A stretch of DNA of 64,000 nucleotides from Melaminivora suipulveris (GTDB taxonomy: Bacteria > Pseudomonadota > Gammaproteobacteria > Burkholderiales > Burkholderiaceae_C): the NCBI RefSeq assembly GCF_003008575.1, contig NZ_CP027667.1, positions 1,368,501 to 1,432,500 of the forward strand, in the 5' to 3' direction. Positions within the stretch are counted from its first letter, which is position 1. Each line of letters starts with the position of its first letter. The notes beneath the pieces were generated by a model. The model saw only the letters and a list, made by a program, of their open reading frames with translations, was not told the DNA's origin and made no database searches. Position numbers and translations under genes: made by a program. Positions 13,250 to 53,252 of this stretch are shown here, piece after piece.

Positions 13250-13274
13250 AAGCCCTCCGCGCGAGGGCTTTTTC
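13250..13274 (+). terminator. Intrinsic terminator of the small basic-protein gene
   Basis: AAGCCCTC (13250-13257) pairs with GAGGGCTT (13263-13270) around a CGCGC loop, and the T-run extends to 13273. It stands 20 bases after the stop at 13229. The T-tract overlaps the ICE attachment core TTTTTCAT, so insertion of the element preserves the terminator. Confidence 0.85.
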
Positions 13275-13276
13275 AT
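13269..13276 (+). other. Putative attL core of Tn4371-family ICE (TTTTTCAT)
   Basis: TTTTTCAT at 13269-13276 equals the 8-bp attachment core known for Tn4371-family ICEs. It lies 175 bases before the integrase start, exactly where the chromosome-like sequence ends and ICE-type genes begin. The matching attR copy would be past the right end of the window and cannot be seen here. Confidence 0.75.
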
Positions 13277-33459: not shown

Positions 33460-33919
33460 TGGCCGCCGACTCGCTGCACGTTTCCGTGCATCTCATCGTG
33501 CTATCGGGCGTGTCATTCCGGCTGCTGTTGCCATGTCGTCGCGCGTGCAGTGCGAGCGCATCCGCGCTGCACTTCGCGCTGCCTCCGGCGCAGCCGTCCC
33601 ACGTGCAGGCGTCTTGCCTCGAACACGGCTGGCCTGCGGCCATTGCCGTGTTCGCCGGTGCGCTGGCTGCTGGTGCAGCCTTGCCACCGGGCCGCAATTG
33701 CCGGGAGCGAGAACCTGGAGTGCCAGGGGAGGCAAATGCGGAAGGCAAGACAAAAGGGTGCGGCACCTGTCGGCCCGCAAAGCCAGTCTGCACGTGGGGG
33801 TGGCGCGGCACGGCGCAGCTTCGCCGCCGTGCCGCTGGGGGCGCGAGGCCCGCGCCGATACGGGCATGTCCGCGTGCTTCGCACGACGGGACACGCCAGA
33901 GCTTGCAAGGAGAACGGCC
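33460..33919. other. 460-bp traF-relaxase intergenic region, candidate oriT
   Basis: The region holds a one-mismatch copy of the iteron-like word at 33497-33512 (CGTGCTATCGGGCGTG). It also holds a perfect 11-bp dyad GCGGCACGGCG (33805-33815) / CGCCGTGCCGC (33825-33835) with a 9-base loop, about 85 bases upstream of the relaxase ATG. Transfer origins normally lie beside the relaxase gene and contain such a dyad next to the nick site. An oriT here is likely but no nic consensus could be matched. CAAGGAG precedes the relaxase start. Confidence 0.5.
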
Positions 33920-35917: not shown

Positions 35918-36327
35918 TCGCCGTCAATGAATATCCGTAATTCGGATTGCCCGACCAGTACTGCGTGGAGTCCCCGTCATGTTGTGCTCACCCCCGATAG
36001 AAGGTCGGAATATGAGCTCAACGTCAAACCGAAGTATTAAATTGTTCACCTTGTAATAACAATTCCTTCTTCAAAACCTTTGGGGTAGGCAAGCCAGCCA
36101 GAAATGTATCGACTCCTGAAGACAGAATCAGCCTTGAAGGCATCATCCTCTTAAAAAGAGCCTTGATTCTAGCTTGCCTCTCACTTGACCTGCTTGCTTT
36201 TAGGTCGGAAGCGGCAAAATTTTATCGCCGTCTTTACAGACATGCATGATCCTGCAGAGTACCATTTTCTATACTTATTGCGCGTCCAAAGATGCAGCTA
36301 ACTAGCTGCTTCGAATAGAGAGGTGGT
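35918..36327. other. Junction region between ICE backbone and osmoadaptation cargo
   Basis: Base composition drops from GC-rich to AT-rich across these 410 bp, marking the cargo boundary. No IS, integrase or clear direct repeat at the junction was recognised. An AT-rich segment with several A/T runs (about 36031-36070 and 36200-36290) may contain the otsA promoter. AGAGAGGTGGT precedes the otsA ATG. Confidence 0.5.
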
Positions 36328-37773
36328 ATGGCTGGAAGGCTAATTGTGGTGTCCAATCGTTTGGCCGATTTTCATAAACCAGCTGCTGGCGGGCTTGCCG
36401 TTGCGCTTAGTGGCATTCTGCGGCAGCGAGGGGGGGTATGGTTGGGCTGGAGCGGGAAGATCGTTAACCGTGGAAAAGAGGATGCACAAATAATTCGTAC
36501 AGCGGTCGGGAATGTAGAGTATCTTTCGATCGATCTCAACGAAGAAGAGTTCAACGGCTACTATAAAGGATATGCAAATGCAACGCTTTGGCCAATTTTA
36601 CATCATCGTGTTGATTTGGCAAAATTCGACAAGGCATCCGAAAAAATATATCGTTTGATGAATGCACGGTTTGCCAAGGTGCTATTGACTGAAATTCAGG
36701 ATGATGATGTGGTTTGGGTGCATGACTACCACTTAATTCCCCTTGGTGAAGAACTTCGCGCCGCCGGCAAACTTAATAAGGTCGGGTTCTTTCTCCATAC
36801 ACCGCTTCCGCCCTCCGCCATCCTGGCAACTTTGCCGAATAATTCATCATTGTTGAGTTCTCTTTTTTCATATGATTTGATTGGATTTCAATCGCAAGAG
36901 GACAAGAGAAATTTTCTTAATTATGTAGAGTGGCAATTTGGAAAAGATTCAGTTGAAGGATCAAAAGTCATTCGCAGGGGAAAGTCAGTTGTAGGAGCAT
37001 TCCCAATTGGAATTGATGTCTGCGAATTTCAGAGCATCGCCCAGTCCAAGACAGCGCAAGCCATGCGAGATGGGATGCGGGAGGAGTATTCCAAGCGGCA
37101 GCTGGTTGTTGGTGTTGACAGGTTGGATTATTCAAAAGGCATTCCTCATCGCGTCCATTCTTTTGGTGAGTTTTTGCATAGATTTCCGCAAATGCAGCGC
37201 AGTGCAACGCTCATACAGATCGCCTCTCCCAGTCGAGGTGAAATAGAGACATATGCTGATATCCAGCGAGAGCTGGAAGCCTTGTGTGGATCAGTCAATG
37301 GAGATCTTGGAGAGCTTGACTGGATGCCCGTCAGATATATCCACAAGACTCTGTGTCAAGAAGAATTGGCTGGTTTGTATCAAGCGGCGAAAGTTGCCCT
37401 GGTCACACCTTTGAGAGACGGGATGAATCTTGTCGCAAAGGAGTTTGTAGCCGCACAAAACCCATATAAACCAGGCGTACTAGTCCTTTCGCGATTCGCC
37501 GGAGTTGCTGAGCAAATGCCAGAGGCCTTGATTGTTAATCCATATGATACGGAATCAGTAGCATATGCCATACACCGCGCTCTCGTCATGCCTCTCGCGG
37601 AGCGTCAGGAACGGCATCGTGCGCTTTTGGGAAAGATCAAGGATAACGATCTTCACTGGTGGTGCAGAAGCTTCTTGCAGCGACTGACTCAACCTGAGTT
37701 CGAATCCAGATCGATCAAATCTGTCTTGAAGAACTTCTGGGCTCGTTTGGATCCAAATTCAAATCACGCCTGA
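36328..37773 (+). CDS. otsA: Trehalose-6-phosphate synthase OtsA
   Basis: A 481-residue GT20 glycosyltransferase that makes trehalose-6-phosphate from UDP-glucose and glucose-6-phosphate. Recognised motifs are LIVVSNRL at the N terminus, GGLAVALSGIL (about 22-32), VWVHDYHLIPLGEELR (about 129-144), HTPLPPS, VDRLDYSKGIPHR (about 259-271), and RDGMNLVAKEFVAAQ for nucleotide-sugar binding. Length equals E. coli OtsA (474). The next gene starts at its stop codon (TGATG), so they are coupled. The gene is clearly AT-richer than the ICE backbone. Trehalose is a compatible solute, matching the Kdp neighbours; the phosphatase is encoded convergently. Confidence 0.95.
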   Translation: MAGRLIVVSNRLADFHKPAAGGLAVALSGILRQRGGVWLGWSGKIVNRGKEDAQIIRTAVGNVEYLSIDLNEEEFNGYYKGYANATLWPILHHRVDLAKFDKASEKIYRLMNARFAKVLLTEIQDDDVVWVHDYHLIPLGEELRAAGKLNKVGFFLHTPLPPSAILATLPNNSSLLSSLFSYDLIGFQSQEDKRNFLNYVEWQFGKDSVEGSKVIRRGKSVVGAFPIGIDVCEFQSIAQSKTAQAMRDGMREEYSKRQLVVGVDRLDYSKGIPHRVHSFGEFLHRFPQMQRSATLIQIASPSRGEIETYADIQRELEALCGSVNGDLGELDWMPVRYIHKTLCQEELAGLYQAAKVALVTPLRDGMNLVAKEFVAAQNPYKPGVLVLSRFAGVAEQMPEALIVNPYDTESVAYAIHRALVMPLAERQERHRALLGKIKDNDLHWWCRSFLQRLTQPEFESRSIKSVLKNFWARLDPNSNHA

Positions 37774-38117
37774 TGAATCCGGTAGCTACTTTTTTCTGGG
37801 TCCTTGCATTGGCCAACCTATTTCTCTCGACAGCTTTGCAGTTACGGGTGGCACGGCTTCAGAATACTAAGAATATAAAATTAATGAAAGGTCAAAGAAA
37901 AGACGACTGGCTGGGTGCAATCATTATGTCTTTTACTATCATTTGTGATAGCACCTCCTTGACAGGATGGCTCTATCTCAAAGTACGGGAGCTCGCAAGC
38001 ACCACCTTTGGTGATTTGTCGAGCATTGTCGGTGTTGTTTATCTCCTGAGCACAATAACAATAGCTTGGCTACTAAAAAGGACAGTCCAACGACTTGCTT
38101 TATTATCATGGCGATAG
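37773..38117 (+). CDS. Small membrane protein coupled to otsA
   Basis: A 114-residue protein with three likely membrane segments: residues 4-24 (VATFFWVLALANLFLSTAL), about 47-67 (WLGAIIMSFTIICDSTSLTG) and about 85-104 (IVGVVYLLSTITIAWLLK). Its ATG overlaps the otsA stop by one base, so translation is coupled. The family is not recognised. Association with otsA suggests a role in the same stress response, but no transport or enzyme motif is visible. It converges on otsB with a 16-base gap. Confidence 0.75.
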   Translation: MNPVATFFWVLALANLFLSTALQLRVARLQNTKNIKLMKGQRKDDWLGAIIMSFTIICDSTSLTGWLYLKVRELASTTFGDLSSIVGVVYLLSTITIAWLLKRTVQRLALLSWR

Positions 38118-38133
38118 CAGTTGGATTGTGTCA

Positions 38134-38946
38134 TTAATCGACACCTCTTATTGGGTTAATTGATGCGCACAGTATTTCGAGCCACTGATCGACATGGGTA
38201 ACTGAGGCCAATCTATACTTGGCACATGTTGAACCTGAGCCAATCTTGAAGCTCATTCCTCCCATTTCATTAACCACCTCAAACGCAGACTCATCGGTGG
38301 CATCATCACCAAAATACACAGGGCTGCGCTCCCGGAATGGTGGCATTTGCATAAAGGCACGGACAGCATTACCTTTGAATATATCCGCAGGTATGACTTC
38401 AAAAACATACTTCCCGGGAATGACTTCAACCCCGGAGTACCCTTGAATTAGCTGATCTATGAGCTCTCTGATCAATAATCCTTTTTCCGGTGCCTGGCGA
38501 TAATGAACGGCGATGGCGCGCTCTCCCTTTTTCTCCAGATAAATATCTGGATGCTCACATCCTAAACGTAATACTGCCTCAGCTAATGGCTTGGGTAGCG
38601 TGTTAGATGTAAGTAGCTTGACGCGATTGTTAAAACGAATCTCAGCGCCATGAACTCCTGCAGTTGGCAAAACCAATGGCCGCAGGAAATGATCCAACTC
38701 ATCTAGCGATCTACCACTGACTATAGCCATAGATCGTATTTTTTCAAAAACATGTCGAAGCTGGACAATTCGACGAGGTGGGACTTTTATTTGGTCAGGA
38801 TGCATTCCCAACTCCACTAGCGTTCCATCAAAATCAAAGAACAGTGCATGGCGATCCAGCAAATCGACTTTATTTATGAGGTGGATTTCTTTTCCTGCTC
38901 TAGATAAGGGATCATCTTCGCTGAATGTACTGCACTGCATCTTCAT
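38134..38946 (-). CDS. otsB: Trehalose-6-phosphate phosphatase OtsB
   Basis: A 270-residue HAD-superfamily phosphatase that releases trehalose from trehalose-6-phosphate. The nucleophile motif is FFDFDGTL with Asp38 and Asp40. Motif II is MAIVSGRS. The C-terminal metal-binding motif is VYFGDDATDESAF. GVHGAEIRF in the cap is typical of OtsB. It is the last gene of the minus-strand kdp train and overlaps the GNAT gene upstream by 4 bases. The physical split of otsA and otsB into convergent transcripts is unusual, since they often form otsBA operons. Expression of otsB may therefore follow KdpDE while otsA is separately driven. Confidence 0.93.
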   Translation of the reverse strand: MKMQCSTFSEDDPLSRAGKEIHLINKVDLLDRHALFFDFDGTLVELGMHPDQIKVPPRRIVQLRHVFEKIRSMAIVSGRSLDELDHFLRPLVLPTAGVHGAEIRFNNRVKLLTSNTLPKPLAEAVLRLGCEHPDIYLEKKGERAIAVHYRQAPEKGLLIRELIDQLIQGYSGVEVIPGKYVFEVIPADIFKGNAVRAFMQMPPFRERSPVYFGDDATDESAFEVVNEMGGMSFKIGSGSTCAKYRLASVTHVDQWLEILCASINPIRGVD

Positions 38947-39383
38947 ATCAGTTTGGATAGAACAATGAGCGGGAGGCCAGGGAGGTAGTCTGGGAGGCGG
39001 TGTATGATCTTGTAACCTCTCCCCACGTAAAGATTCGCGGTCTTGACAGACAGCGATTCGATCCGAGATTCAATGCATCCCTTTGTGGCAGCATCACTTT
39101 CCGCGGTTTTGAGAAGACTAGATCCAATGCCATTTCCACGATAGCAATGTTCGACCCAAAGGTACTCTATATATAGGCGGCGCAATTCCATATGACCGCA
39201 GATGCCTCCAATCAATGCGCCATCAATGCGAGCACCGAAATGAATTGATCTTGGAGCTCCCGCCCCAACGGAGACACGGTCATGCAGAATTACCTTGTGG
39301 ATAATATGCTCCTGCTCGTTTCTGCTTAATTTATTTGTATATTCGACTTCCATACATACCCAGTCATTGACTGACCTAACCAC
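38943..39383 (-). CDS. GNAT-family N-acetyltransferase between kdpE and otsB
   Basis: A 146-residue acetyltransferase. The core follows IHFGARIDGALIGGICGHME (about 47-66), motif A is YIEYLWVEHCYRGNGIGSSL with the RGNGIG pyrophosphate loop (about 71-90), and the C-terminal strand is NLYVGRGYKIIHRLPDYLPG. The arrangement resembles the small GNATs that act on low-molecular-weight amines or amino acids. It lies 10 bases after kdpE and overlaps otsB by 4 bases, so it belongs to the kdp-otsB transcript. A role in making an acetylated osmolyte is a possibility but not visible from the sequence. An internal Met at codon 11 is an alternative start. Confidence 0.8.
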   Translation of the reverse strand: MVRSVNDWVCMEVEYTNKLSRNEQEHIIHKVILHDRVSVGAGAPRSIHFGARIDGALIGGICGHMELRRLYIEYLWVEHCYRGNGIGSSLLKTAESDAATKGCIESRIESLSVKTANLYVGRGYKIIHRLPDYLPGLPLIVLSKLI

Positions 39384-39393
39384 TTCTTTACAG

Positions 39394-40122
39394 TTAATTC
39401 TTTTGATCCGTTGGTTTCTCGGTACCGACGAATCGCAGGCCCACGCCGGGCTCCGTCATGATGTATCGAGGCGCGGATGCATCGTCGTGCAACTTGTGGC
39501 GCAACTTTCCGACGAGGATGCGCAGGTAATGCGCATCCTCTTCATGGGAGGGGCCCCATACACCGCGCAGCAGCTGTGCTTGGGTGATGAGCCTTCCTGG
39601 CTGCTGGATGAGCAAGGCCAGTAGCGCGAATTCTTTGCGCGTGAGCGCAATGGCCTCACCTGAAATACGCACCTCCCGCTGGGCAAGGTCTACACGCAGG
39701 ATTCCATCGTCGTAGATGGGACCTGCCGTACCACGCAGGTGAGCAGTGCGGAGAAAAGCCCGGATGCGTGCCATTAACTCCTCTATGCCGAATGGCTTGG
39801 TGACATAGTCATTCGCCCCGGCATCCAGCAGGGCGACTTTCTCTTCTTCGCCAGAGCGAACCGTCAGAACGACGACCGGCACACTCGACCATTGCCGCAA
39901 TTCCTTGAGCACATCCTGACCATCACGGTCTGGCAAGCCAAGATCCAGTACCACGATGTCTGCGCCCTTGCTGGCCAGAAGCGCCAGGCCTTGCTGTCCC
40001 GTTTCGGCAAGCAGGGTGGCGTAGCCTTGTGATCGCAAGCTGATATCGACGAATTTGCGTATCTGCGGTTCATCGTCAATGACGAGTACCCGTGGCATAG
40101 ATGCATTTTCAGTTGGGTTCAT
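39394..40122 (-). CDS. kdpE: Response regulator KdpE
   Basis: A 242-residue OmpR/PhoB-class regulator. The receiver has the acidic pocket DDE (16-18), phospho-acceptor Asp60 in VVLDLGLPD, Thr in VLTVRSGEEEKV and Lys in YVTKPFG. The C-terminal winged helix (about 140-235) reads LTRKEFALLALLIQQPGRLI and RILVGKLRHKLHDD. YIMTEPGVGLRF closes the domain. It should activate the kdp promoter when phosphorylated by KdpD. It is separated from kdpD by 3 bases. The first residues before MPRVLVIDD may be non-native; Met9 is an alternative start. Confidence 0.94.
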   Translation of the reverse strand: MNPTENASMPRVLVIDDEPQIRKFVDISLRSQGYATLLAETGQQGLALLASKGADIVVLDLGLPDRDGQDVLKELRQWSSVPVVVLTVRSGEEEKVALLDAGANDYVTKPFGIEELMARIRAFLRTAHLRGTAGPIYDDGILRVDLAQREVRISGEAIALTRKEFALLALLIQQPGRLITQAQLLRGVWGPSHEEDAHYLRILVGKLRHKLHDDASAPRYIMTEPGVGLRFVGTEKPTDQKN

Positions 40123-40125
40123 CTC

Positions 40126-42837
40126 TTATGGCTCCAAAGCCGGCGGCTCGCCGCGTGGCAAGACCATGCGGATGAGCGTTCCCCGCCCGTTCGGGCCGGG
40201 CAGCGCTTCCACTTTTCCCATATGGGCACCCACAATCCCTTGGACGATGGTCAACCCTAGGCCTGTTCCGTGCTTTCCCCGATCACCACGCTCGACGCTA
40301 TAGAACATGTCGAATATCCGACGCCGCTCTGCCTCGGGGATACCTGGCCCCATGTCGGAGATGTCTATGCGAACCGTATTGCATTCAAATGGCACAGCGC
40401 TGACCTCAATGGGTCTGTCGGGAGGCGAGTATTTTGCGGCGTTCTCCATGACGTTAAAGATGGCCTGCTCAATCAATGCCGGGTGTACGTGGATAAGGCC
40501 TAAGCTTGGATCGATCTGGCTTTGAATCTTCACGCCCGGCACATACCGTTGGAGACGATGCCCTGCTGAGCCAATCAATTCATCAACACCGATCCAGTCG
40601 CGCGTCAATGTCAGTCCCTGTTGGCCAAGCCGGGTCATGTCCAGCAGGTTCTGGATATAGCGGTCCAGACGCTCTCCTTCGGTGTGGATCGTCTCCAACA
40701 AGCTGTTCTGGTCATCCGTCCCCATATCCTTGCCATAGCGGCTGAGGCTTTCGGCGGCACCGATGATCGAGGAGAGTGGGGAACGCAGGTCGTGCGATAC
40801 GGAGGAAAGTAAGGCCGAACGCAGACGCTCGGTTTCACTAGTGATCCGCGCTGTCTCCAACTCATCGACCAAGCATGTGCGCAGGGCCGCTTGCCCTATG
40901 TCCTCCACCATGCTCTCCGCGAGGCGACGTTGCTCAAATGCAAGACGGCCGGTATTGGCTGGAAACCGCAGGCCAACCACTCCCAGCGCCTCCGTGTCCG
41001 AGAGAATCGGCAGGAACCACCAGTTCGAGTCAGTAAGTGTGTCCGTATGGCGGCCGCTCGGTTGCCCATGCCGCTGCGCCCAGTCGGCCGCCACCATGTC
41101 TGTTTCAGTCATCTCGCGAACAGCGTCTGCAGGCCCAGAATCTCCTTTGATTCGTATCCATGCTTGTGCACGCATGGTTGCCTGTAGAACCGACGATCCT
41201 GCACTAATCACTTGCCCCAGATCAGCCGACTTCGAGAGCGCGCGCCCCAGCTTCTGCATTGCTGCGGCGTGGCCATTGGCGGCACGCAACGCCACAACTT
41301 GCATTCGCAGCCGGGATGCCAGCCGCCCCGCGATCAGGGCCGCACCGAGAAACAACAACACCGTGGCCACCCCGCGGTGGGCACTGATCAGGAAAGTAAA
41401 GCGTGGCTCGATGAAAAAGAAGTCATAGGCCAAAAAGCAAATCACTGCGGTGATAACCGCCGAAGTCATGCGCGTGCGAGAGGCGACCAATAGCACAGCC
41501 ACCAGGAAAACCATGGAAAGGTCTTGCAGCCCTGCAAAGCGCTCAACCAGAGCCGCCACAGCAGTGGCGCCCGCGCTGGTCAGCAAGATCAACATTGGTT
41601 CTCGCCGCGAGAGGCGCTTGCTTGCGACTTCGGCTAGCCGCAACGAGCGGCGGCGGGCTTGGGGTGTACTGATGATGGTCAGTTCGTAGCGCGCACCACG
41701 TGACAGCAGTTGCTGAGTCAGCGTGCGGTTAAACATCCGTGCGACCGGTCTTTCGCGCGTGCGGCCGATGACGATGGATTTGGCGCCTCGCAGCTCGGCT
41801 GCGTCCAGCAGGCCTTGGGCGATGTCCGTGTCGTGAAGCACTTCCGTTTCGCCGCCAAGGCTGCGTGCCAGGGCGAATGCCTTGTCAATTTCCAGCTGGC
41901 GTGCTTGCTCCACCCGAATGACTGCCGAAGCGCCGCCTGGCGCGTCCGCAGCAGAAATTGTTGCTTGTGCGGAGTGGCCCGTGTCTACGGTCACCACCGA
42001 CCACGGGGCGCCACGGCGCTCCGCAATACGAACCCCGGCTCGCACCATGTATTCGGATTGGCCCATACCGTCGATTGCTATCAGCACGTGGCGCCGTATC
42101 GAGACGCCTGTCAAGCCGCGGGCGGTGCGTGTCTCTCGCAGGTCGGCATCGACATGCTCAGCCACGGTTTGCATCGCTAATTCGCGCAACGCTGTGAGAT
42201 TAGACGGTGAAAAGAAGGCTTGCAGAGCTCTCGCGGCCTGCTCTGGAAGGTAGACCTTCCCGTCATTGAGCCGCTCAATCAGTTCACGTGCAGGGAGATC
42301 CACGAGACGGATGTCCCTCAGACGCTCGAACACTGCATCGGGTACTGTCTCGCTCACACGAATACCGGTGATCTGATGCACCACGTCATTCAGGCTTTCT
42401 AGATGCTGAATGTTGACGGTGGTGTAAACATCGATACCTGCATCCAGCAGTTCGTCGACGTCTTGCCATCGGCGCTCGTGCCGGCTCCCCGGGGCATTGC
42501 GGTGAGCAAGTTCATCCACCAATGCTATTGCCGGCTTTCGCGCCAGCAGACCATCGAGGTCCATTTCCTCCAGAACACGTCCTTGGTATTCGACTTTCCG
42601 ACGTGGCAACTGGGGCAATCCTTCCAGCAAGGCGAGGGTTTCCGCTCGTCCGTGAGTCTCCACAATGCCGATGAGCACATCGATGCGTTGGCGGTGCAAC
42701 TCGCGTGCACGCATCAGCATTGCGTAGGTCTTCCCTACCCCTGGGGCAGCCCCTAGAAACACCGTAAGCCGGCCGGCGGCCTGGCGGCGAAGCTCGCCTA
42801 TGAGAGCATCAGCCTTTTTTGCATTCTCGATACTCAT
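40126..42837 (-). CDS. kdpD: Osmosensitive K+ channel histidine kinase KdpD
   Basis: A 903-residue sensor kinase responding to K+ limitation and salt stress. It has an N-terminal KdpD domain with Walker A GAAPGVGKT (29-37) and Walker B ALVDELAHRN (105-114), a universal-stress-like domain (about 248-390), four TM helices (about 415-510), a GAF-like region (about 520-650), then HisKA with His682 in SSVSHDLRSPL. The ATPase domain ends with DMGPGIPEAERRRIF and GTGLGLTIVQGIVGAH. Length equals E. coli KdpD (894). An EIIA-Ntr-type protein, a known KdpD partner in E. coli, is encoded immediately upstream on the same strand. Confidence 0.95.
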   Translation of the reverse strand: MSIENAKKADALIGELRRQAAGRLTVFLGAAPGVGKTYAMLMRARELHRQRIDVLIGIVETHGRAETLALLEGLPQLPRRKVEYQGRVLEEMDLDGLLARKPAIALVDELAHRNAPGSRHERRWQDVDELLDAGIDVYTTVNIQHLESLNDVVHQITGIRVSETVPDAVFERLRDIRLVDLPARELIERLNDGKVYLPEQAARALQAFFSPSNLTALRELAMQTVAEHVDADLRETRTARGLTGVSIRRHVLIAIDGMGQSEYMVRAGVRIAERRGAPWSVVTVDTGHSAQATISAADAPGGASAVIRVEQARQLEIDKAFALARSLGGETEVLHDTDIAQGLLDAAELRGAKSIVIGRTRERPVARMFNRTLTQQLLSRGARYELTIISTPQARRRSLRLAEVASKRLSRREPMLILLTSAGATAVAALVERFAGLQDLSMVFLVAVLLVASRTRMTSAVITAVICFLAYDFFFIEPRFTFLISAHRGVATVLLFLGAALIAGRLASRLRMQVVALRAANGHAAAMQKLGRALSKSADLGQVISAGSSVLQATMRAQAWIRIKGDSGPADAVREMTETDMVAADWAQRHGQPSGRHTDTLTDSNWWFLPILSDTEALGVVGLRFPANTGRLAFEQRRLAESMVEDIGQAALRTCLVDELETARITSETERLRSALLSSVSHDLRSPLSSIIGAAESLSRYGKDMGTDDQNSLLETIHTEGERLDRYIQNLLDMTRLGQQGLTLTRDWIGVDELIGSAGHRLQRYVPGVKIQSQIDPSLGLIHVHPALIEQAIFNVMENAAKYSPPDRPIEVSAVPFECNTVRIDISDMGPGIPEAERRRIFDMFYSVERGDRGKHGTGLGLTIVQGIVGAHMGKVEALPGPNGRGTLIRMVLPRGEPPALEP

Positions 42838-42896
42838 CGTTGTTCATCCCATTTCATCCTAGGGCGGTATTTGTAGAACTGCTTTATTGAAAAAAA

Positions 42897-42963
42897 GGAC
42901 GGCTGGTCAAGGACCAATCCTCTAGTAGCTGCAATCTGCAATCGCGTATCCTCCCAGCCGTCC
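42897..42963 (-). terminator. Stem with T-run between ptsN-like gene and kdpD
   Basis: On the minus strand GGACGGCTGG (42963-42954) is followed 47 bases later by its exact complement CCAGCCGTCC (42906-42897), then seven T residues. The intervening segment has its own GGATTGGTCC dyad. The shape is that of an intrinsic terminator with a long structured loop, lying between the EIIA-Ntr gene and kdpD. It could be an attenuator or the end of a small RNA. No known riboswitch class was recognised. Confidence 0.55.
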
Positions 42964-43044
42964 AAAAGGGAAACCGTTTGGCTCCTACACAGCGATCACT
43001 ACGCCTTCATGACCGATCCTCATGTCGAGATTGAAGCAACCCGC

Positions 43045-43500
43045 TCAATGGGGCCATCGTTCAAATAGCCGCAACACATCAGCAGGGTTCAGACAAGCGC
43101 GCAGTGCCGTCCTGAACCCTGGTTCAGAAAACAGTGATGCGACATGGGCGAGGACATCCAGATGCTCTTGCGTCGCTGGCGCGGGTACGAGCAAAACAAC
43201 AATGTCAGTGACTGGATGGCCGTCTGCCGCATAGGACATCATTGGCACAATTGGTCGCACGTAAAGAACCCGAATATTGTTGAGGCCGATTACGCGTGCA
43301 TGAGGAACAGCTACGCCATTACCCAAAGCGGTTGATGCCGCAAGCTCCCGCCGATGCAAGGCGGCCGTGACGGACTCGTGGGCGACCCGATGGGTCTTTT
43401 CCATGTGTTGACCGATCGCCTCGAACAGGCATTTTTTGCTCGCGGCTTGAAGATTCAGAAGAATATCCTCGTTCGCAAGATGACGGCTCAGGGTACTCAT
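43045..43500 (-). CDS. PTS EIIA-Ntr (PtsN)-like regulatory protein in the kdp cluster
   Basis: A 151-residue EIIA domain of the fructose/nitrogen-PTS type. The phosphorylatable histidine is His67 in GNGVAVPHARV, and DIVVLLVPAPATQEHLDVLA followed by LASLF-type helix VASLFSEPGFR matches PtsN. In E. coli, unphosphorylated EIIA-Ntr binds KdpD and stimulates kdp expression. A copy placed between kdpB and kdpD strongly suggests a dedicated partner. No EI, NPr or membrane component is nearby, so it would depend on host PTS-Ntr for phosphorylation. It is longer than a bare domain only by a few residues. ptsN is not given as symbol because the host should hold its own. Confidence 0.85.
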   Translation of the reverse strand: MSTLSRHLANEDILLNLQAASKKCLFEAIGQHMEKTHRVAHESVTAALHRRELAASTALGNGVAVPHARVIGLNNIRVLYVRPIVPMMSYAADGHPVTDIVVLLVPAPATQEHLDVLAHVASLFSEPGFRTALRACLNPADVLRLFERWPH

Positions 43501-43607
43501 ACGGCTTCCTCACTCCCCGTACAACGGCTTTCATTTCGATATCGCTCATAGAAACCCCAAAGAGGGATGTGCCATCCGCTTGCGATGGGGGTATACGAAA
43601 ATGGATC

Positions 43608-43633
43608 GGGGGCGACGCTTTCATATCGCCCCC
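43608..43633. other. 8-bp inverted repeat between kdpB and the EIIA-Ntr gene
   Basis: GGGGGCGA (43608-43615) and TCGCCCCC (43626-43633) form a strong stem with a 10-base loop, 21 bases beyond the kdpB stop on the minus strand. There is no T-run, so processing or stabilisation of the kdpFACB message is more likely than termination. Confidence 0.5.
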
Positions 43634-43654
43634 ACCAAAGCGCCGCGGCTGCTA

Positions 43655-45754
43655 TCAGAAGAATGGGGTCAACAGGATGTCGATCAGCTTGATCCCGATG
43701 AATGGTGCGATGAGGCCACCGACCCCGTAGATCAGCAGGTTGCGCCTGAGCAGATGCGAGGCAGGTTCGGCCCGATACTTCACCCCACGCAGGGCAAGCG
43801 GGATCAAGGCAACGATGATCAGCGCATTGAAGATCACTGCGGACAGAATCGCCGAACTGGGGCTGTGCAGTCCCATCACGTTCAAGGCCCCTAATGCCGG
43901 ATAAGTGGCGACGAACGCGGCCGGAATGATCGCGAAGTACTTCGCCAGGTCATTCGCCACACTGAACGTGGTCAATGCCCCTCGCGTCATGATCATTTGT
44001 TTGCCCACCTCGACGACACGCAGAAGCTTGGTGGGATTGCTGTCCAGATCCACCATGTTGCCGGCTTCCTTCGCTGCTTGTGTGCCACTGTTCATGGCCA
44101 CGGCCACGTCAGCCTGCGCAAGGGCTGGCGCGTCGTTGGTACCGTCGCCCGTCATGGCCACCAAGTGGCCCTCGGCTTGGTACTTGCGGATCAGATTCAA
44201 TTTGTCTTCGGGCGTGGCTTCAGCCAGGAAGTCGTCCACGCCCGCGTCAGCGGCAATCGTAGCGGCAGTGAGCTTGTTGTCGCCCGTGATCATGACCGTC
44301 TTGATGCCCATAGAACGCAGTTGGCCGAAGCGCTCCTTGATCCCACGCTTGATGATGTCTTTGAGCTCGACAACGCCGATGACGCGGGGGCCATCGGCCA
44401 CAACCAGCGGAGTGCTGCCGCGCCGAGAAATTTCCTCGACTGTCAGGTTGACGGCTTCAGGGAACGTCCCGCCGGCACGCTCCACGTAGGCGCGGATCGC
44501 CGATGCGGCCCCTTTGCGCAGTTGCCGATCATCGATGTCGATGCCGCTCATGCGGGTCGTTGCACTGAAGGGGATGGGCTCGGCACCATCCAGTGTCCGA
44601 GACTTGACATTGAAGCTGCCTTTGGCCAGCGTCACAATGGAACGGCCTTCCGGCGTTTCGTCAGCCAGCGAAGCCAGGTAGGCAGCATTGGCAACAGCCG
44701 ACTCTGACAGGCCCGGAGCGGAGACAAATCTGACAGCCTCGCGGTTGCCCAAGGTGATCGTGCCAGTCTTATCGAGCAGGAGCACGTCAACGTCACCGGC
44801 AGCTTCAATTGCACGACCAGAGGTCGCCAGAACATTGGCATTCATCATCCGGCTCATACCGGCGATGCCTACTGCCGAGAGTAGCGCGCCAATGGTGGTC
44901 GGAATCAGGCACACCAGCAAGGCAATGAGGACCGTGATGCTCACTGGCTGTCCTGCGCCATTGACCTGTACGCCGAAAATAGAGAATGGCAACAGTGTCA
45001 TGCACACCAGCAGGAAGATCAGCGTCAGGGCGACCAACAGGATGTTCAGCGCAAGCTCGTTCGGTGTCTTGCCTCGCTTGGCACCCTCGACCATAGCGAT
45101 CATGCGGTCAAGGAACGCCTCGCCAGGCTTCGCCGTGACACGCATGATGATCCAGTCGGAAAGAACGCGGGTCCCGCCGGTAACCGAGCTGAGATCGCCA
45201 CCAGCCTCGCGGATCACCGGGGCCGACTCCCCAGTGATGGCTGACTCATCGACCGAAGCGACACCAACCAGGACTTCACCGTCCGCTGGGATGGTCTCTC
45301 CGGCGTTGACGTGGACATAGGCGCCCACGGCCAATTCGTCGCTGGGAACAGGCCAACTCGTACTGTCCAGACGGGGTTCCTTGAGTACACGGGCAACCAC
45401 TCGCCGGCGAGAGGCGCGCAGCGCCTGGGCATGCGCTTTGCCGCGGCCTTCGGCCAAGGCCTCGGCTCCGTTGGCGAAGAGCACGGTGAACCAGAGCCAG
45501 GCAGCCACTGCAAAAATGAAGCCCGCAGGGGCGTCGCCATCTCCTCGCACGGCCTGAATCCCCAGAACCGTTGCCACGATGCTGCCGACATACACGACAA
45601 ACATCACTGGATTCTTCATCTGTACACGCGGAGACAGCTTACGGAACGCTTCACCAATGATTGAGGTCCATGGCAAGGCGCCGGGCTGAGGGTCTGGCTG
45701 TTTCCCAGACGGGCCGGTGCTATTGGTAGATGTGATGACTTCTGTTTGGGACAT
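43655..45754 (-). CDS. kdpB: K+-transporting P-type ATPase subunit KdpB
   Basis: The 699-residue catalytic subunit of the high-affinity K+ pump KdpFABC. The phosphorylation motif is [12 protein letters not shown] with Asp328, the actuator motif is ITGES (173-177), and the hinge is [23 protein letters not shown] is the KdpB nucleotide-domain signature. Membrane segments lie at about 48-66, 78-95, 233-260, 270-297 and three near the C terminus. All key residues are present. It lies downstream of kdpC rather than between kdpA and kdpC, which departs from the usual kdpFABC order. The spacer to kdpC is 14 bases. Confidence 0.96.
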
Positions 45755-45768
45755 AAAAACTCCCAGCC

Positions 45769-46443
45769 TTATTGAGTGACTGGCCGGGCCTTGAAGGCCT
45801 CGTCCAGTGCGAGGTTGAGTTCCAGCACGTTGACGCGGGGTTCGCCAAGAACGCCGAGCTGACGTTGCGCTGTGTTCTGTTCCAGCACCGACAGCACATC
45901 CTGCTCAGGCACATTGCGCGCCTTTGCCACCCGGGACACTTGCAGCCGGGCGTTCGCTAACGAGATGTGCGGATCAAGACCGGAGGCAGATGCGGTCACC
46001 GCATCGACCGGTACCTTCGCATCGGCGGCCAGACCGTTTTCCTCGCGATAGGCTTTGGTGCGCTCTGCCACGGCGTCGAGCAGTTTCTTGCTCAACGCAC
46101 CTTGGTTGCTCGCACCGCTGTTGGCAGCGTTGTACGGCTGGTCGATCGAATTGGCTGGATCGTTCGGGTCTGTGCCGGAGGTGGCACTGGGGCGGCCATG
46201 GAAATACTGAGGCTGCGTGAAAAGCTGACCAATGACACGCGAGCCTACGGCCTGCCCATTGCGAGCAACCAAGCTGCCCTGCGCCTGATCGCGAAACAGC
46301 AGTTGGGCCGCACCGGTGGTTGCCAGTGGATACATCAGCCCGGTCACGACCATGAAGAACACTGCAGAAACAAGCACCGGGCGGACGACACCGCTGAATG
46401 CCGATGTCACGGCCGGGCTGACCTGTGTTTGAATTTCAGTCAT
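45769..46443 (-). CDS. kdpC: K+-transporting ATPase subunit KdpC
   Basis: A 224-residue single-pass subunit that stabilises the Kdp complex. The TM helix is at about residues 22-45 ([20 protein letters not shown]). The periplasmic part has [20 protein letters not shown] (about 67-86), [10 protein letters not shown] and [19 protein letters not shown] with [12 protein letters not shown], all diagnostic of KdpC. It is about 30 residues longer than E. coli KdpC, mostly in the middle and the C-terminal tail. It sits 9 bases after kdpA and 14 bases before kdpB. Confidence 0.95.
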
Positions 46444-46452
46444 AGCTACTCC

Positions 46453-48156
<1,704 letters not shown>

Positions 48157-48168
48157 CTTGGACTCCGA

Positions 48169-48252
48169 TCAGATTTTTTCGAGGCCAACGATGAACCCCG
48201 CCGTGATTACGAAAAATCCGCAAGTTAATGCGAAAAACAAGAAATCACCCAT
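48169..48252 (-). CDS. 27-aa single-pass membrane peptide between kdpF and kdpA
   Basis: An open frame of 28 codons: MGDFLFFALTCGFFV, then ITAGFIVGLEKI. Almost the whole peptide is one hydrophobic helix ending in Glu-Lys-Ile. It begins 34 bases after the kdpF stop and ends 12 bases before the kdpA ATG, preceded by GAGGTGC as a ribosome binding site. Similar very short hydrophobic frames occur beside kdpF in many betaproteobacterial kdp operons and are rarely annotated. It may be an extra small subunit or regulator of the pump; that is inference. Confidence 0.65.
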   Translation of the reverse strand: MGDFLFFALTCGFFVITAGFIVGLEKI

Positions 48253-48286
48253 AAATGCACCTCGATTGATTTGTATGATTTTGCGA

Positions 48287-48367
48287 TCAGAATTTCTCAG
48301 GTTTTACCAGTGCATAAAGCAAATATGCAAACAATCCAAACGATATCAATCCGACAATAAAATTCAT
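48287..48367 (-). CDS. kdpF: KdpF small subunit of the K+ pump
   Basis: A 26-residue peptide, MNFIVGLISFGLFAYLLYAL then VKPEKF. One TM helix followed by the short polar end YALVKPEKF is the KdpF pattern, and the length is normal (about 29 in E. coli). AAGGTGG lies 4 bases before the ATG. It is the first pump gene after the TorF-like porin gene, 47 bases downstream of the porin stop. KdpF stabilises the KdpABC complex in the membrane. Confidence 0.85.
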   Translation of the reverse strand: MNFIVGLISFGLFAYLLYALVKPEKF

Positions 48368-48414
48368 GATCCACCTTTATTGAAAATTCCGTGCGGCGGG
48401 CAAGTTATTAATTT

Positions 48415-49116
48415 TTAGAAAGAGGCTTGCAGGGCAAACTCAACACGAGAGCCGGCCATACCGGGAAACATTCTTTTTGCGGCGGAGTCCGTCCCGTGCA
48501 GCATCAGCCTTGCCTCGAATGGGGCTTGAAATGCCCACACCACGCCCAGGGAACCGTGCGTGTAGCTATCCGCGTAGGCGCTGTCCAGGAAGTAGCGCGC
48601 TAGCGTGCCCTCGATACGCCATTTGTCATTGACGGGGTATCGCGCACCGACGAGCGCATAGGTACCAGTTGTCTTGCTGGCCATCGCGTTCGTGGAGTGC
48701 CCCACCGACAGCCAGTAGTTGTCGCGCCAAGTGAGCGCCACGTTGATTTCGTTCCAGTTGGGGGAGCCTTGCGCACCGGGGTATTGGTAGCGCAGGTAGT
48801 ACGCATCAAGCGCCCAGTCTTCTGCCAGCTTGCCGCTCCAGCCCAGAGCGATATCGAATTCGCTACTGGCATCGTTATCTGGCTTGAACTTGACGTTGGA
48901 GCCCCAAACCGAGGCATAGAAGCCGGAGTCGTGGGCGTACTTGACCCCTGCCTGAACCGCCGGCTTCTCACGTGTCTGTGAGGAGCCGCGCCACACGTAG
49001 TCAGACGTCAGGCTGACATTGCCGGTGAGCTGCGCGGCGGCCATTGAGGGCAGCATCGAAAGAACGGCACCGCCAAGCGCTGCCGCATAGCTCAGGGATG
49101 AAAGGGATTTGGACAT
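48415..49116 (-). CDS. TorF-family putative outer-membrane porin
   Basis: A 233-residue protein with a signal peptide (MSKSLSSLSYAAALGGAVLS to SMAAAQ). The mature part opens with LTGNVSLTSDYVWRGSSQT, the TorF-family (TIGR02001) hallmark. Alternating hydrophobic/aromatic strands, many Trp/Tyr residues and the terminal VEFALQASF with C-terminal Phe indicate an outer-membrane beta barrel. The ATG at 49116 is taken because it begins the signal peptide. It heads the kdp train, suggesting K+ or solute entry across the outer membrane under the same control; that link is inferred. Confidence 0.85.
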   Translation of the reverse strand: MSKSLSSLSYAAALGGAVLSMLPSMAAAQLTGNVSLTSDYVWRGSSQTREKPAVQAGVKYAHDSGFYASVWGSNVKFKPDNDASSEFDIALGWSGKLAEDWALDAYYLRYQYPGAQGSPNWNEINVALTWRDNYWLSVGHSTNAMASKTTGTYALVGARYPVNDKWRIEGTLARYFLDSAYADSYTHGSLGVVWAFQAPFEARLMLHGTDSAAKRMFPGMAGSRVEFALQASF

Positions 49117-49170
49117 ACCAGGAATTCTTTGAGTGGCGAAATTGCCATTCACCAGTATTTGCCAACACCC

Positions 49171-49262
49171 CGTAAATTTTCCATTCTCAAATCACGCCTC
49201 GGCGTAAATTTTGCGTAATTTTTTCGATATCTCCTTCGGACGAAATTTATGCGGAATTTACG
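49171..49262. promoter_or_regulatory. AT-rich repeat cluster in the divergent kdp/RimK control region
   Basis: CGTAAATTTT occurs at 49171-49180 and 49203-49212, a variant CGTAATTTTT at 49214-49223, CGAAATTTAT at 49241-49250, and the inverse AATTTACG at 49255-49262. The cluster lies between the porin start (49116) and the plus-strand microprotein operon (49316). KdpE targets in E. coli are AT-rich with TTTA words, so these are candidate KdpE or common regulator sites. A perfect TTGACA (49267-49272) on the plus strand is a possible -35 element. Confidence 0.5.
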
Positions 49263-49315
49263 AGACTTGACATTGAATCGACCTATAGTTTATCCACCTT
49301 TTTAACTTGGCGTGG

Positions 49316-49471
49316 ATGGTAATGTCGCAGGCACTTCAAGACATATTTTTTGTCGCGCTTGTAGCTGTAGGTTTTGTAGCTTTTTTTCGAGGATTCGATC
49401 GTCTCCTGAAGTTGCTCGAAATGTCTCGTCGCTGTAACGAGAGCTCCCACAGTGCCCCCTATGAAAAATGA
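49316..49471 (+). CDS. 51-aa membrane microprotein, first gene of the GNAT-RimK-like operon
   Basis: An open frame of 52 codons starting MVMSQALQDIFFVAL, with a hydrophobic helix to about residue 24 followed by FRGFDRLLKLLEMSRR and a short polar end. The layout (DIFFVAL then a helix ending in FDRLL) resembles the short membrane peptides found in betaproteobacterial kdp operons. A second ATG at 49322 is possible. It overlaps the next small frame by 11 bases, which in turn overlaps the GNAT gene. The chain of overlaps supports translation. A minus-strand frame at 49283-49507 overlaps it and is considered less likely. Confidence 0.5.
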   Translation: MVMSQALQDIFFVALVAVGFVAFFRGFDRLLKLLEMSRRCNESSHSAPYEK

Positions 49472-49607
49472 CTTCTGGCTTGCCTGCCTTGCCTTGCTTG
49501 TCGTCATCGTGCCACTACTATTGGCATGGTTTATCGTCAGTCTTCCCGATCAAATAAAAAGACGGGAGCTCAAGAAAAGAGCACGAATAACAAATGAAAG
49601 ACTTTGA
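49461..49607 (+). CDS. 48-aa single-pass membrane microprotein upstream of GNAT
   Basis: A frame of 49 codons: MKNDFWLACLALLVVIV, then PLLLAWFIVSLPDQ, then a basic tail rich in Lys and Arg (IKRRELKKRARITNERL). One TM helix of about 22 residues with a positive C-terminal tail is clear. It starts inside the end of the preceding microprotein gene and its last 14 bases overlap the GNAT start. This compact arrangement indicates a real operon member. The family and function are unknown. It could anchor or regulate its enzyme neighbours. Confidence 0.55.
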   Translation: MKNDFWLACLALLVVIVPLLLAWFIVSLPDQIKRRELKKRARITNERL

Positions 49608-50154
49608 TATCCGATTGGCTATAAATACTGATCTTCAAGCCCTTTACGAATTGGAAAAAAGGGCATTTTTCACTGATCGGATCAGCTTACGTAGTTGGCG
49701 CAGAATGCTCATTAGTCCGTCTGCGACGGTGATCGTCGCCACATCAGAAAACATCATCGTTGGATCAGCAGTTGTTCTTTTCAGAAATAGTACTTCTGTT
49801 TCGCGCATTTACTCGGTAGCTGTCAGCGAAGATTTTCAACATTGTGGCATCGGGCGGGCATTGATAACTTATGCATGCCTGATCGCAAATAAGAAAAATC
49901 ATCGCGAAGTTCGACTTGAGAGTCGAATCGATAACGCAAGCGCTCATAGGCTTTTCCGCTCTCTCGGTTTCTCCCCTTGGGGGAAGCCGGTGGACGGATA
50001 CTATGCAGATGGAACAGCAGCATGCCGGTTTCGCTTCAGGCTACCGGTTTCACAGCCCGTTTTGAATGAAAAACCCATGGCGATTCATCACTTACCACAC
50101 AGGTCAGAAGAATCTGATCCCGGGGCAGCCTCATTCAGTCGCGCGCACCATTGA
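49594..50154 (+). CDS. GNAT-family acetyltransferase paired with RimK-like ligase
   Basis: A 186-residue acetyltransferase. LYELEKRAFFTDRISLRSWR (about 17-36) and VSRIYSVAVSEDFQHCGIGR with the QHCGIG acyl-CoA loop (about 69-88) match the GNAT domain that in many gammaproteobacteria is fused to a C39-like peptidase and encoded beside a RimK-family protein. Here the peptidase part is missing: the conserved homology ends near residue 150 and a low-complexity tail follows. It is 36 bases before the ligase gene. It probably acetylates an amine that the ligase makes or uses; this is inference. Confidence 0.8.
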   Translation: MKDFDIRLAINTDLQALYELEKRAFFTDRISLRSWRRMLISPSATVIVATSENIIVGSAVVLFRNSTSVSRIYSVAVSEDFQHCGIGRALITYACLIANKKNHREVRLESRIDNASAHRLFRSLGFSPWGKPVDGYYADGTAACRFRFRLPVSQPVLNEKPMAIHHLPHRSEESDPGAASFSRAHH

Positions 50155-50190
50155 TTTAACTAGGCAAATGCGCGCGCACAGGAGAATTTT

Positions 50191-51840
50191 ATGAACTCGG
50201 ATCATCTTATCATCGTTGAGAAGGCTTCGGATTTCCGCTGGAGTAATCCGGAAATTGAGATTGTGACTGCGGAGCAATATCTTGCCGATGGGCCTCGAAT
50301 ACGAAGTCGTCCGCGAAAAGTCATCAATCTGTGCCGCAGCTACAGCTATTTGAGTGTGGGCTACTATTGTTCACTTCTCGCGGAGGCTCGTGGAGACAGG
50401 GTAACGCCAAGTGTTGAGACCATCCTGGAAGTGGCTCGGCGCAAACCCCAAGCCACCATGCTGCCGATGCTCAGTTCTCTGGTCGGCCCTCTCAAGGATG
50501 TGCCGCGCTCCGTGCGAAGTCTTACGTTGCACGTGTTCTTTGGGGAAATTGAAGATCCTCAGTTGGCCACGCTTGCCCGCAAGAGTTTCGAGTTATTCCA
50601 TTGCCCTTTGCTGGAAATTGAAATTGAACGAGCTGGGAAATCCCATATTTGGGAGGTGTCCGCAGTCCACCCGCTCAAACCATCGGATGTGAGTCCCGAG
50701 CAAGACGATATCCTGGTCCGCGGCTTGGCCAGGTTTACCCGACGCGCTTGGAATCCCGCTCCACGCCCGCGGACTTATCGCATGGCACTCGCGATACTGC
50801 ATGATCCCAAAGATCCTCTTCCCCCATCCAACTTGAAGACCTTGGCGAGAATTGCAGAAATAGGCGAGAGCATGGATATTTCGGTTGAATTGATCGAAAA
50901 AAAAGATCTCTCCAGATTAACCCAGTTTGATGCGCTTTTCATTCGCGAAACGACGGCAGTATCACATCATACTTATGAATTTGCGCGTAAGGCAGAATTA
51001 GCGGGAATGCCAGTTATTGATGATCCGGCATCTATTCTTCGGTGTGCCAACAAGGCATATCTTGCTGAACTCCTTAAGGGAAACGACATCCCCACTCCAA
51101 AGACTTTTCTAATAAGCAAGCAGAGTCTGAATAGTATGGCGATGCTCCTTCCTTATCCGGTAGTGCTGAAGGTCCCTGATGGGGCATTCAGCAAAAGTGT
51201 AAAAAAGGCAAATGATGCAACTCAGCTTCATGATATCTCCCGCGAAATGCTGAAAGAGTCGGATGTTATCCTTGCGCAGGAATTCATGTACACCGCCTTC
51301 GATTGGCGTATTGGTGTTTTGGATGGAAAGCCATTGTTTGCCGCCCGCTATCACATGTGCAAAGACCATTGGCAGATCATCAAACATGCTGGGGACGGGA
51401 AGTTCCAGGAAGGCCGCGTGGAATCTGTCCAACTGACCGACGTTCCAGGTTCAATTCTGGCGCTGGCATGCACGTCAGCAAAACTGATTGGAGATGGGCT
51501 TTACGGCATTGACATCAAATCCAACGATCAGAAATCTTTCGTTATCGAAATCAATGATAATCCAAATATTGATGTTGACATGGAGGATTATCATGAGGGC
51601 GTCGATATTTACAGAAAAATACTAGCCCATCTACTGGAGCGCTTTGAGAAGCGTCACAAAATATCAAAGGAATATGAAAATATTTCTATTGAATCCACAA
51701 GTAGAAAATTCAACAAAAATACACGCCATATTAATTCAGATGAAGGAAAGGTGGCCAACAAACAGAGTTCTCAAGGTCCAAACTCAAAAACTCGGAATCG
51801 AGATAATTTGATTGAAGCTGGTATTGTCAATATTAATTAA
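50191..51840 (+). CDS. RimK-family ATP-grasp ligase with pre-ATP-grasp domain
   Basis: A 549-residue protein. Residues 1-180 form the RimK-like N-terminal domain ([36 protein letters not shown]). The ATP-grasp fold follows: [20 protein letters not shown] (about 248-267), [20 protein letters not shown] (about 289-308), [15 protein letters not shown], and metal-binding [16 protein letters not shown] near 450-465. It should ligate an amino acid or amine to a carboxylate using ATP. The last 75 residues are a polar, Ser/Asn/Lys-rich extension not typical of the family. It is AT-rich. It ends 31 bases before traR, so transcription may run into the transfer regulator. Confidence 0.85.
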
Positions 51841-51871
51841 TAATTTCGGCAGAGTCAGGGGTGGATAGATA

Positions 51872-53035: not shown

Positions 53036-53252
53036 CGCACTTCGCCGTCGCCTCGCTGCGACGAAGTTCTCGTTGTTACCCCATCACGCCGCAGCGCGCT
53101 CACGCCTGCGGCATTTTTATTGCCTTCGCCACTGCAAGAAATCTGGCTTTCTCGGTCTGAATCCCCGCCATAACGGCCTTTGACCGGCCTGCACGCACGC
53201 CTTGATCCTCAGTGCTGCGGCACCTCCGTGTGCCGTGATCGGAGGCGAGGTT

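Follow-up and report, generated by a model that had tools for sequence, protein, structure and literature searches.

Does the mobile DNA of Melaminivora suipulveris carry not just single stress genes, but a complete osmotic-stress response together with its own sensor? The question arises from a block of potassium-uptake, trehalose, acetyltransferase and ligase genes at positions 36328-51840 of a 64,000-nucleotide stretch of contig NZ_CP027667.1 (assembly GCF_003008575.1). This stretch, referred to as the window, covers bases 1368501-1432500 of a single-contig genome of 3,754,020 bases; unless stated otherwise, coordinates are those of the window. An original prediction, made from the letters alone, had read the block as an osmoadaptation island on a conjugative element. 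Our analysis makes it probable that an integrative and conjugative element (ICE) of the Tn4371 family, about 52.5 kb long, carries a stress regulon with its own regulator in the slot between rlxS and traR, and that the pump of this regulon has been exchanged. The evidence lies in gene content, structure and end repeats of the element, an empty site in related genomes, conserved boxes, a mosaic pump, and near-identical copies in divergent hosts.

Gene content and predicted regulation of the island

The predicted 15.5 kb of AT-richer DNA between relaxase and traR is evident in 1-kb composition bins. GC lies between 0.445 and 0.615 in the sixteen bins from 36001 to 52000, with flanking values of 0.677-0.693 (six bins, 30001-36000) and 0.647-0.682 (three bins, 53001-56000). 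The cargo sits between the RlxS relaxase gene and a LysR gene at the traR position. All genes named in the original prediction were found in place by hidden Markov model (HMM) scans (Table 1), with two amendments: the gene between kdpB and kdpD encodes a PtsN/EIIA-Ntr paralog, and one of the microproteins, which are indeed present, is KdpF.

The KdpFABC-KdpDE set is complete, with all pump subunits and the sensor pair, and the kdp order is A-C-B rather than A-B-C. KdpD and KdpE, which both score under the NCBIfam equivalog cut-offs, were assigned by their domains. Functional motifs were found in KdpB (DKTGT at 328, TGES at 174, GDGTNDA), KdpD (HisKA motif HDLRSP at 682), OtsA (HDYH and DGMNLVAKE), OtsB (FDFDGT and GDDATD) and the RimK protein (EINDNP at 453). 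Three further patterns had no match, namely a loose KdpE pattern, a glycine-rich OtsA pattern and the strict Walker A pattern G-x4-GK[ST] in KdpD, which shows a Walker-like GAAPGVGKT. The island PtsN is, by its score, a divergent paralog, because TIGR01419 gives 81.5 and the cut-off is 138.7. It keeps the phosphorylatable His67 (GVAVPH), aligned with chains of PDB 4gqx and 3urr. The host encodes a single EI, a single HPr and one EIIA_2 protein besides that of the island, so that island PtsN could be phosphorylated by host enzymes.

Judged by its genes, the island would serve osmoadaptation, and its phenotype, like the product of the GNAT/RimK pair, is a prediction from sequence. High-affinity K+ uptake is the most likely and clearest gain for the host, because the genome has no KdpA match other than that of the island. 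The trehalose genes would raise gene dosage under separate control, since the host chromosome has relatives of otsA (55%) and otsB (39%; locus L010). The otsB gene (38134-38946) seems to have joined the kdp operon later, at its end. Our guess for the product of GNAT and RLAN-RimK is a small acetylated or glutamylated solute. Synthesis of N-acetylglutaminylglutamine (NAGGN) was considered and rejected: with the NAGGN synthetase model TIGR03103, GNAT2 scores 19.8 (cut-off 569), and the RimK protein is unmatched by this model and carries an RLAN domain.

Conserved boxes suggest that one sensor controls everything. The KdpE site of E. coli is given as TTTATA-N5-TTTACA in PMC3264566. The pattern TTTATR-N5-TTTACR, with up to one mismatch, matches the window only at 49246-49262 (0.04 expected), and this site is also the single exact match in the whole genome of 3.75 Mb (reversed control 0). 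A looser pattern has four matches (0.32 expected): two lie within otsA, and the other two, in opposite orientations, between the porin and microprotein genes. Boxes with up to one mismatch are found in the corresponding region of 6 of 9 loci (L009, which is the locus of G004, another genome of the genus, L012, L013 and L124, with single matches in L126 and L121); since these loci were scanned after the motif had been seen in an alignment, the counts are descriptive. Upstream of otsA, four overlapping 18-mers tie for the best conservation in 260 bp (compared with L009 and L012). TTTATCGCCGTCTTTACA is among them, and the box lies 106-107 bp before the start codon in the window, L009 and L012.

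We infer from these boxes that KdpE would bind them and co-regulate the arms. K+ limitation or turgor loss would cause KdpD to phosphorylate KdpE, and unphosphorylated EIIA-Ntr (host PtsN and/or the island paralog) would assist KdpD. Such a contact in the island system is suggested by analogy, as KdpD is an interaction partner of unphosphorylated EIIA-Ntr in four species (E. coli, R. leguminosarum, P. putida and S. fredii) according to the relevant sections of PMC9239096 and PMC3665714. KdpE would then activate two divergent promoters at about 49.2 kb, one for the arm porin-kdpFACB-ptsN-kdpDE-GNAT-otsB and one for the arm microproteins-GNAT-RimK ligase, and probably otsA as well. The cell would gain high-affinity K+ uptake, trehalose and perhaps the small acetylated or glutamylated product.

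Several observations weigh against a common regulon. At up to one mismatch, no box was found in L014, L007 and L011, although the L011 contig holds just 335 bp before the porin match and L014 has two degenerate boxes at 2 mismatches. The spacer of the otsA box, at 6 bp, is non-canonical. Window PtsN, like KdpD and KdpE, falls under its NCBIfam equivalog cut-off. In S. fredii, the minor paralog PtsN3 showed no interaction with KdpD, and PtsN1 bound a GAF domain (same sources); a Pfam scan of the window KdpD showed no GAF domain. Trehalose may be no gain, since the host has its own otsA and otsB relatives and otsB is unmatched in the packages (the corresponding gene sets) of L009, L012 and L013.

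Some of these points would also fit a simple K+-scavenging island, in which KdpE controls the pump operon alone, and otsA, GNAT and RimK are unrelated passengers sharing a hotspot. Kdp alone is known cargo (PMC2789088), and the Tn4371 ICEs of genome G356 and Eoetvoesiella caeni contain torF-kdpFACB-DE without ots, ptsN or rimK matches; the otsA spacer and the host otsA/otsB relatives point the same way. However, the gene set stays together in G004, L012 and L013, one box faces the rimK arm, and the otsA box is found at near-constant distance in three lineages. We therefore consider this explanation doubtful, though it is the most serious competitor of the regulon.

The Tn4371-family element

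The element is bounded by identical 8-bp TTTTTCAT repeats, one 183 bp before the start of int and the other 516 bp past the end of the trbI frame (64022-65293, PF03743). Tn4371-family elements are expected to end in 8-bp direct repeats, which read TTTTT(C/T)(A/G)T in 12 of the 18 rows of Table 4 in PMC2789088; TTTTTCAT is the commonest of them (6 rows), and 6 rows have none. Taken by itself, the repeat proves little, because exact copies recur at 9755, 12739 and 36864, and on the other strand at 41411, 49461, 50066 and 67296. The joined empty site is stronger evidence. A 600-bp sequence made by joining the two flanks aligned across the junction in three of the four other genomes of the genus (G002, 34-596 at 80%; G003, 34-585 at 79%; G004, 36-583 at 78%). 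The fourth, G001 (840 contigs), counts against this, as it matches over just 37-309 of the 600 bp. The copy of the attachment site in G004, at 46.9 kb, is empty, even though G004 has a related ICE at another place. Homology to that ICE reaches 65495, and the flank from 65809 is unmatched in the 20-kb stretch of G004 that was read, which fits the right end of the element.

The integrase and the gene order are those of the family. Members should have an integrase with more than 70% protein homology to intTn4371 (PMC2789088, section 7). The integrase of the window is 78.5% identical (85.7% positives, 98% coverage) to that of the pPNAP01 element, which served as a proxy for intTn4371 and is listed as Tn4371-like in the same paper (its Table 4 gives no direct repeats for pPNAP01). 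Similar maintenance and transfer genes are also found in the same order. The backbone to the left of the cargo, in order, is identical to the pPNAP01 element by 70% (ParB), 84% (RepA), 91% (ParA), 68% (DUF2840), 71% (S26 peptidase) and 68% (RlxS), and TrbE, TrbL, VirB8-like and TrbI domains are present in the transfer region. The idea of mobile cargo on a Tn4371-family ICE is thus upheld by a same-family integrase, gene order, TTTTTCAT repeats, the empty site and related cargo in other ICEs.

The ICE could nevertheless be an immobile remnant, its cargo now being a fixed chromosomal asset. According to PMC2789088 (section 7), transfer of the original Tn4371 had yet to be demonstrated, and one frame in the trb region, 59910-60665, has no Pfam match. 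Against this stand uninterrupted frames for integrase, relaxase, TraG, TrbB, TrbE, TrbL, VirB8-like protein and TrbI, the identical end repeats, and the empty site in sister genomes. From these we infer that the ICE may still transfer, and we judge a remnant unlikely.

Two side observations concern Tn4371-type DNA of this genome. In the left part of the ICE, a DDE transposase gene (17853-18833) separates an AAA ATPase gene (16526-17572) from an S8 subtilase gene (18880-21264), and the latter two match the defence pair IetA/IetS of PADLOC. Elsewhere in the genome (G000:C1:1207958-1210309), a second rlxS (85%) with one in-frame stop suggests another, decayed Tn4371-type element.

Probable pump exchange, relatives and a putative second carrier

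The pump does not appear to share the history of its regulators. Compared with the Tn4371 ICE of G356, identity per 100 bp is 0.84-0.99 over 43701-49000 and 0.71 or less outside, dropping at the kdpB stop and within torF. DNA identity is 69.4% for kdpDE, 70.2% for traR, 86.4% for the backbone on the rlxS side and 89.4% for traG-trbB; ptsN, ots and rimK had no match in the 20 kb of the G356 ICE that were read. The packages of L009, L012, L013 and L014 have the pump order A-B-C, and KdpA, KdpB and KdpC are 37-59% identical to the window, in contrast to 78-79% for KdpD and KdpE. In trees, the window's KdpA and KdpB cluster with the ICE of G356 and E. caeni (support 100/99 and 100/100), as does TorF (7 rows), while KdpD falls within the package clade. 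It weakens the case that the KdpD tree leaves the exact place of the window unresolved, contains G356-type KdpD in the same clade and comes with a long-branch warning. KdpD of the G356/E. caeni element belongs to the package clade, so that in this element, too, regulators of the package type accompany a pump of order A-C-B.

The pump cassette thus appears to have been exchanged, in either direction, with another kdp-bearing Tn4371 ICE, whereas the promoter region and the regulators of the package would have been kept. Descent of both elements from one ancestor without exchange, the pump being merely more conserved than kdpDE, might be considered because KdpB is a slow protein and both are Tn4371 ICEs with related kdpDE and similar backbones. 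It is very improbable in view of the sharp change in identity, the contrast between about 70% for traR and kdpDE and 92.5% for the pump, and the different pump clade in packages (G004, L012, L013, L014) that still have a similar kdpD. An exchange of the pump only, with regulators and promoter region kept, amounts to modular shuffling within one hotspot.

The island is not a common possession of the genus. A single KdpA match was found in each of three of the 5 genus genomes, and none in G001 and G002. G003 has a kdpF-A-C-B-D-E locus (L007) without other package genes in the stretch read. In G004, the package without otsB lies between rlxS and traR (L009, about 2.48-2.50 Mb), in the order rlxS-otsA-mp114-gnat1-kdpE-kdpD-ptsN-kdpC-kdpB-kdpA-torF-mp48-gnat2-rimK-traR; that the ends of this ICE were not found is a point against our interpretation. 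The refuting case named beforehand, in which the block would occupy one fixed place on the chromosome throughout the genus, was not seen in the 5 genomes. Native chromosomal genes of the genus, for which the G003 kdpFACB-DE locus could speak, can practically be dismissed, being contradicted by the empty-site comparison, the absence of kdpA matches in G001 and G002, and the low identity of the G003 locus (just 53-72% for KdpA, KdpB and KdpC, 35-46% for KdpD and KdpE).

Relatives outside the genus are scattered. A pattern scan for island PtsN in 84,980 species genomes gave 241 relatives, the best 80 of which were analyzed. Among these 80, four have the porin and pump of the package: Nitrosovibrio Nv17 (6.6-kb contig), the Burkholderiales metagenome-assembled genome UWPOB_RUBRI2, E. 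caeni DSM 25520 and Pseudorhodoferax Leaf265; otsA and rimK are also present in two of the four (RUBRI2 and E. caeni). Sixteen others among the best 80, each with a Rhizobium, Rhizobiales or Hyphomicrobiales label, carry more distantly related kdp genes in the locus that holds the PtsN relative (one kdpD and kdpE only); seven loci with just a 26-28% KdpB match were excluded as kdp loci. The pairing of a PtsN relative with kdp in L040 and 15 similar loci is possibly a convergent or old link.

Searches of the order, class and plasmids gave mostly partial matches. Relatives of rlxS (E 1e-50 or better) occur in at least 17 of 399 sampled genomes of the order, and at least 2 of the 17 (G000, which is the genome of the window, and G356) show a KdpD of 76% or more next to rlxS, positions being compared by eye; the counts are lower bounds, since no genome contributed more than two scored candidates to either search. 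Class-wide, KdpC was matched in 42 of 369 genomes, none above 58% identity except the window's own. The protein database holds eight further KdpC clusters at 90-96% and one at 72% in Nitrosovibrio Nv17, hence the pump type is not unique. None of the 24 records from a near-DNA plasmid search for the whole island covered 80% of the query. At the protein level, kdp was found on plasmids of Comamonas antarctica and Acinetobacter nosocomialis, and the plasmid stretches that were compared showed no match to rimK or otsA. All plasmid matches to RimK (16/16 records) and TorF (27/27) were below 60% identity, and no kdp gene is annotated in one RimK-matching region, on P. aeruginosa pZYPA1927. The A. 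nosocomialis plasmid pHUAV/AMR-R (L122) has kdpABCDE, a glutamine synthetase-family gene and a TorF porin, with IS-element genes on both sides.

The package apparently also travels on a second kind of element. L012 and L013 hold the cargo set without rlxS and traR, and in RUBRI2 and E. caeni the package does not adjoin rlxS. Past otsA, both genomes encode a protein of 668/671 aa with TraI_2 and TraI_2_C domains, which we take to be a MobH-type relaxase; on the opposite side of the package, E. caeni has an ABC-transporter permease and an ATPase with a CBS match below cut-off. By sequence comparison, the package was recently transferred between these distant hosts, because the 20.4-kb loci are 98.5% identical although the host rpoB loci are only 77.7% identical (DNA). 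Both copies carry a pump other than that of the window. E. caeni also has a near copy of the G356 ICE (98.8% over 18.9 kb; host rpoB loci 85.5%), and both parental types, a MobH-type package and a G356-like ICE, are therefore present in one genome. Four rlxS relatives are found in E. caeni DSM 25520 (G405, L013), on contigs C1, C11, C12 and C18, one of them with an in-frame stop.

Table 1. Positions of the element ends, cargo genes and predicted boxes in the window
Feature	Position	Strand	Remarks
attL, 8-bp TTTTTCAT	13269..13276		
ICE tyrosine integrase	13452..14648	+	PF00589
RlxS relaxase, left border of cargo slot	33533..35917	+	NF041267 655.9 bits, below cut-off 850; PF11843
KdpE-like box upstream of otsA, TTTATCGCCGTCTTTACA	36221..36238	+	spacer 6 (canonical 5)
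otsA, trehalose-6-phosphate synthase	36328..37773	+	TIGR02400 E 2e-166, 554.2, just below curated cut-off 564.85; PF00982
mp114, 114-aa predicted protein after otsA	37773..38117	+	39-54% identity in L009, L012, L013, L014; no match in Pfam/NCBIfam scans
otsB, trehalose-6-phosphate phosphatase	38134..38946	-	TIGR00685, PF02358
GNAT acetyltransferase 1 (gnat1)	38943..39383	-	PF00583; 52-62% in L009, L012, L013
kdpE, response regulator	39394..40122	-	NF007820 E 2.6e-70, below curated cut-off; PF00072, PF00486
kdpD, sensor kinase	40126..42837	-	KdpD, Usp, DUF4118, HisKA, HATPase domains
PtsN/EIIA-Ntr paralog in kdp operon	43045..43500	-	TIGR01419 E 5e-23, below cut-off; PF00359
Apparently exchanged cassette kdpB-kdpC-kdpA-mp27-kdpF-torF	43655..49035	-	92.5% DNA identity to G356 ICE, 5382 aligned columns
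kdpB, P-type ATPase subunit	43655..45754	-	TIGR01497 1019 bits; 96% to G356 ICE; one end of cassette
kdpC	45769..46443	-	TIGR00681, PF02669
kdpA	46453..48156	-	TIGR00680, PF03814
mp27, 27-aa microprotein between kdpF and kdpA	48169..48252	-	93% identical in G356 and E. caeni ICEs; no family above cut-off in HMM scans
kdpF	48287..48367	-	TIGR02115 37.1 bits, cut-off 26.85; PF09604
torF, TorF-family putative porin	48415..49116	-	TIGR02001, PF09694
KdpE-type box facing porin-kdp arm	49203..49219	-	ATTACG-N5-TTTACG, 1 mismatch to looser pattern
KdpE-type box facing GNAT-RimK arm	49246..49262	+	TTTATG-N5-TTTACG
49-aa microprotein	49322..49471	+	match in L013
mp48, 48-aa microprotein	49461..49607	+	matches in L009, L012, L013
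GNAT acetyltransferase 2 (gnat2)	49594..50154	+	PF00583, PF13508
rimK, RLAN/RimK ATP-grasp ligase	50191..51840	+	PF14401 E 6e-40, PF08443
LysR regulator at traR position, right border of cargo slot	51872..52783	+	
eexN, after LysR gene	52808-53035		followed by traG, trbB, trbE, trbL, virB8-like; trbI in L130
attR, matching TTTTTCAT	65809-65816		outside window, in L130

Meaning and relation to known systems

Discussions of ICE cargo usually centre on genes for resistance, metals or catabolism. If our interpretation is true, a stress response that moves with its regulator and conserved operator-like boxes would give the recipient a turgor response without rewiring of its own network, and the entire circuit might pass from one bacterium to another. 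More tentatively, the package could be a portable osmotic-stress regulon in the full sense, with one mobile sensor and its own EIIA-Ntr input driving K+ uptake, trehalose and an acetylated or glutamylated solute made by GNAT and RLAN-RimK, swapped part by part and travelling on two unrelated kinds of element (Tn4371-type and MobH-relaxase-type).

The original prediction knew of no described Tn4371-family ICE with this cargo, which seems to hold for the wider package, but not for the pump. Genes like kdpFABC were reported in 2009 in the variable region before traR in P. aeruginosa PA7 and Thioalkalivibrio sp. HL-EbGR7 (Ryan et al., 2009; PMC2789088). The terms trehalose, osmo-, ribosomal protein S6, porin, ptsN, RimK and acetyltransferase are all absent from the main text of that paper; compared by description, the two elements may hold more of the package than this text says. 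It was the only direct precedent for the cargo found in the open-licence literature, and the accessible text of PMC11578231 and PMC5094676 does not describe the full cargo. Kdp has thus been known in this hotspot since 2009, while the package, regulon structure, pump exchange and second carrier are apparently undescribed in the open-licence literature, where we found none of them.

Individual features have close counterparts. ICE Tn4371 6042 (PA7) and ICE Tn4371 6071 (HL-EbGR7) are described with a Tn4371-family backbone and kdp before traR, as here. The pPNAP01 ICE of Polaromonas naphthalenivorans CJ2 has the same order (int, parB, repA, parA, DUF2840, S26 peptidase, rlxS, cargo slot, LysR, eexN, traG, trbB), but differs by its biphenyl and efflux cargo, with no kdp annotated in the 75 kb read. 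In the PTS-Ntr-KdpDE-KdpFABC pathway of S. fredii and R. leguminosarum, EIIA-Ntr acts on KdpD and PtsN paralogs exist; unlike for the island, the relevant sections of PMC9239096 and PMC3665714 describe no mobile-element setting. Finally, the kdpFABC promoter of E. coli has the half-site layout of the island boxes (PMC3264566), whereas the island is predicted to have two oppositely oriented boxes where its divergent arms meet, and a related box upstream of otsA.

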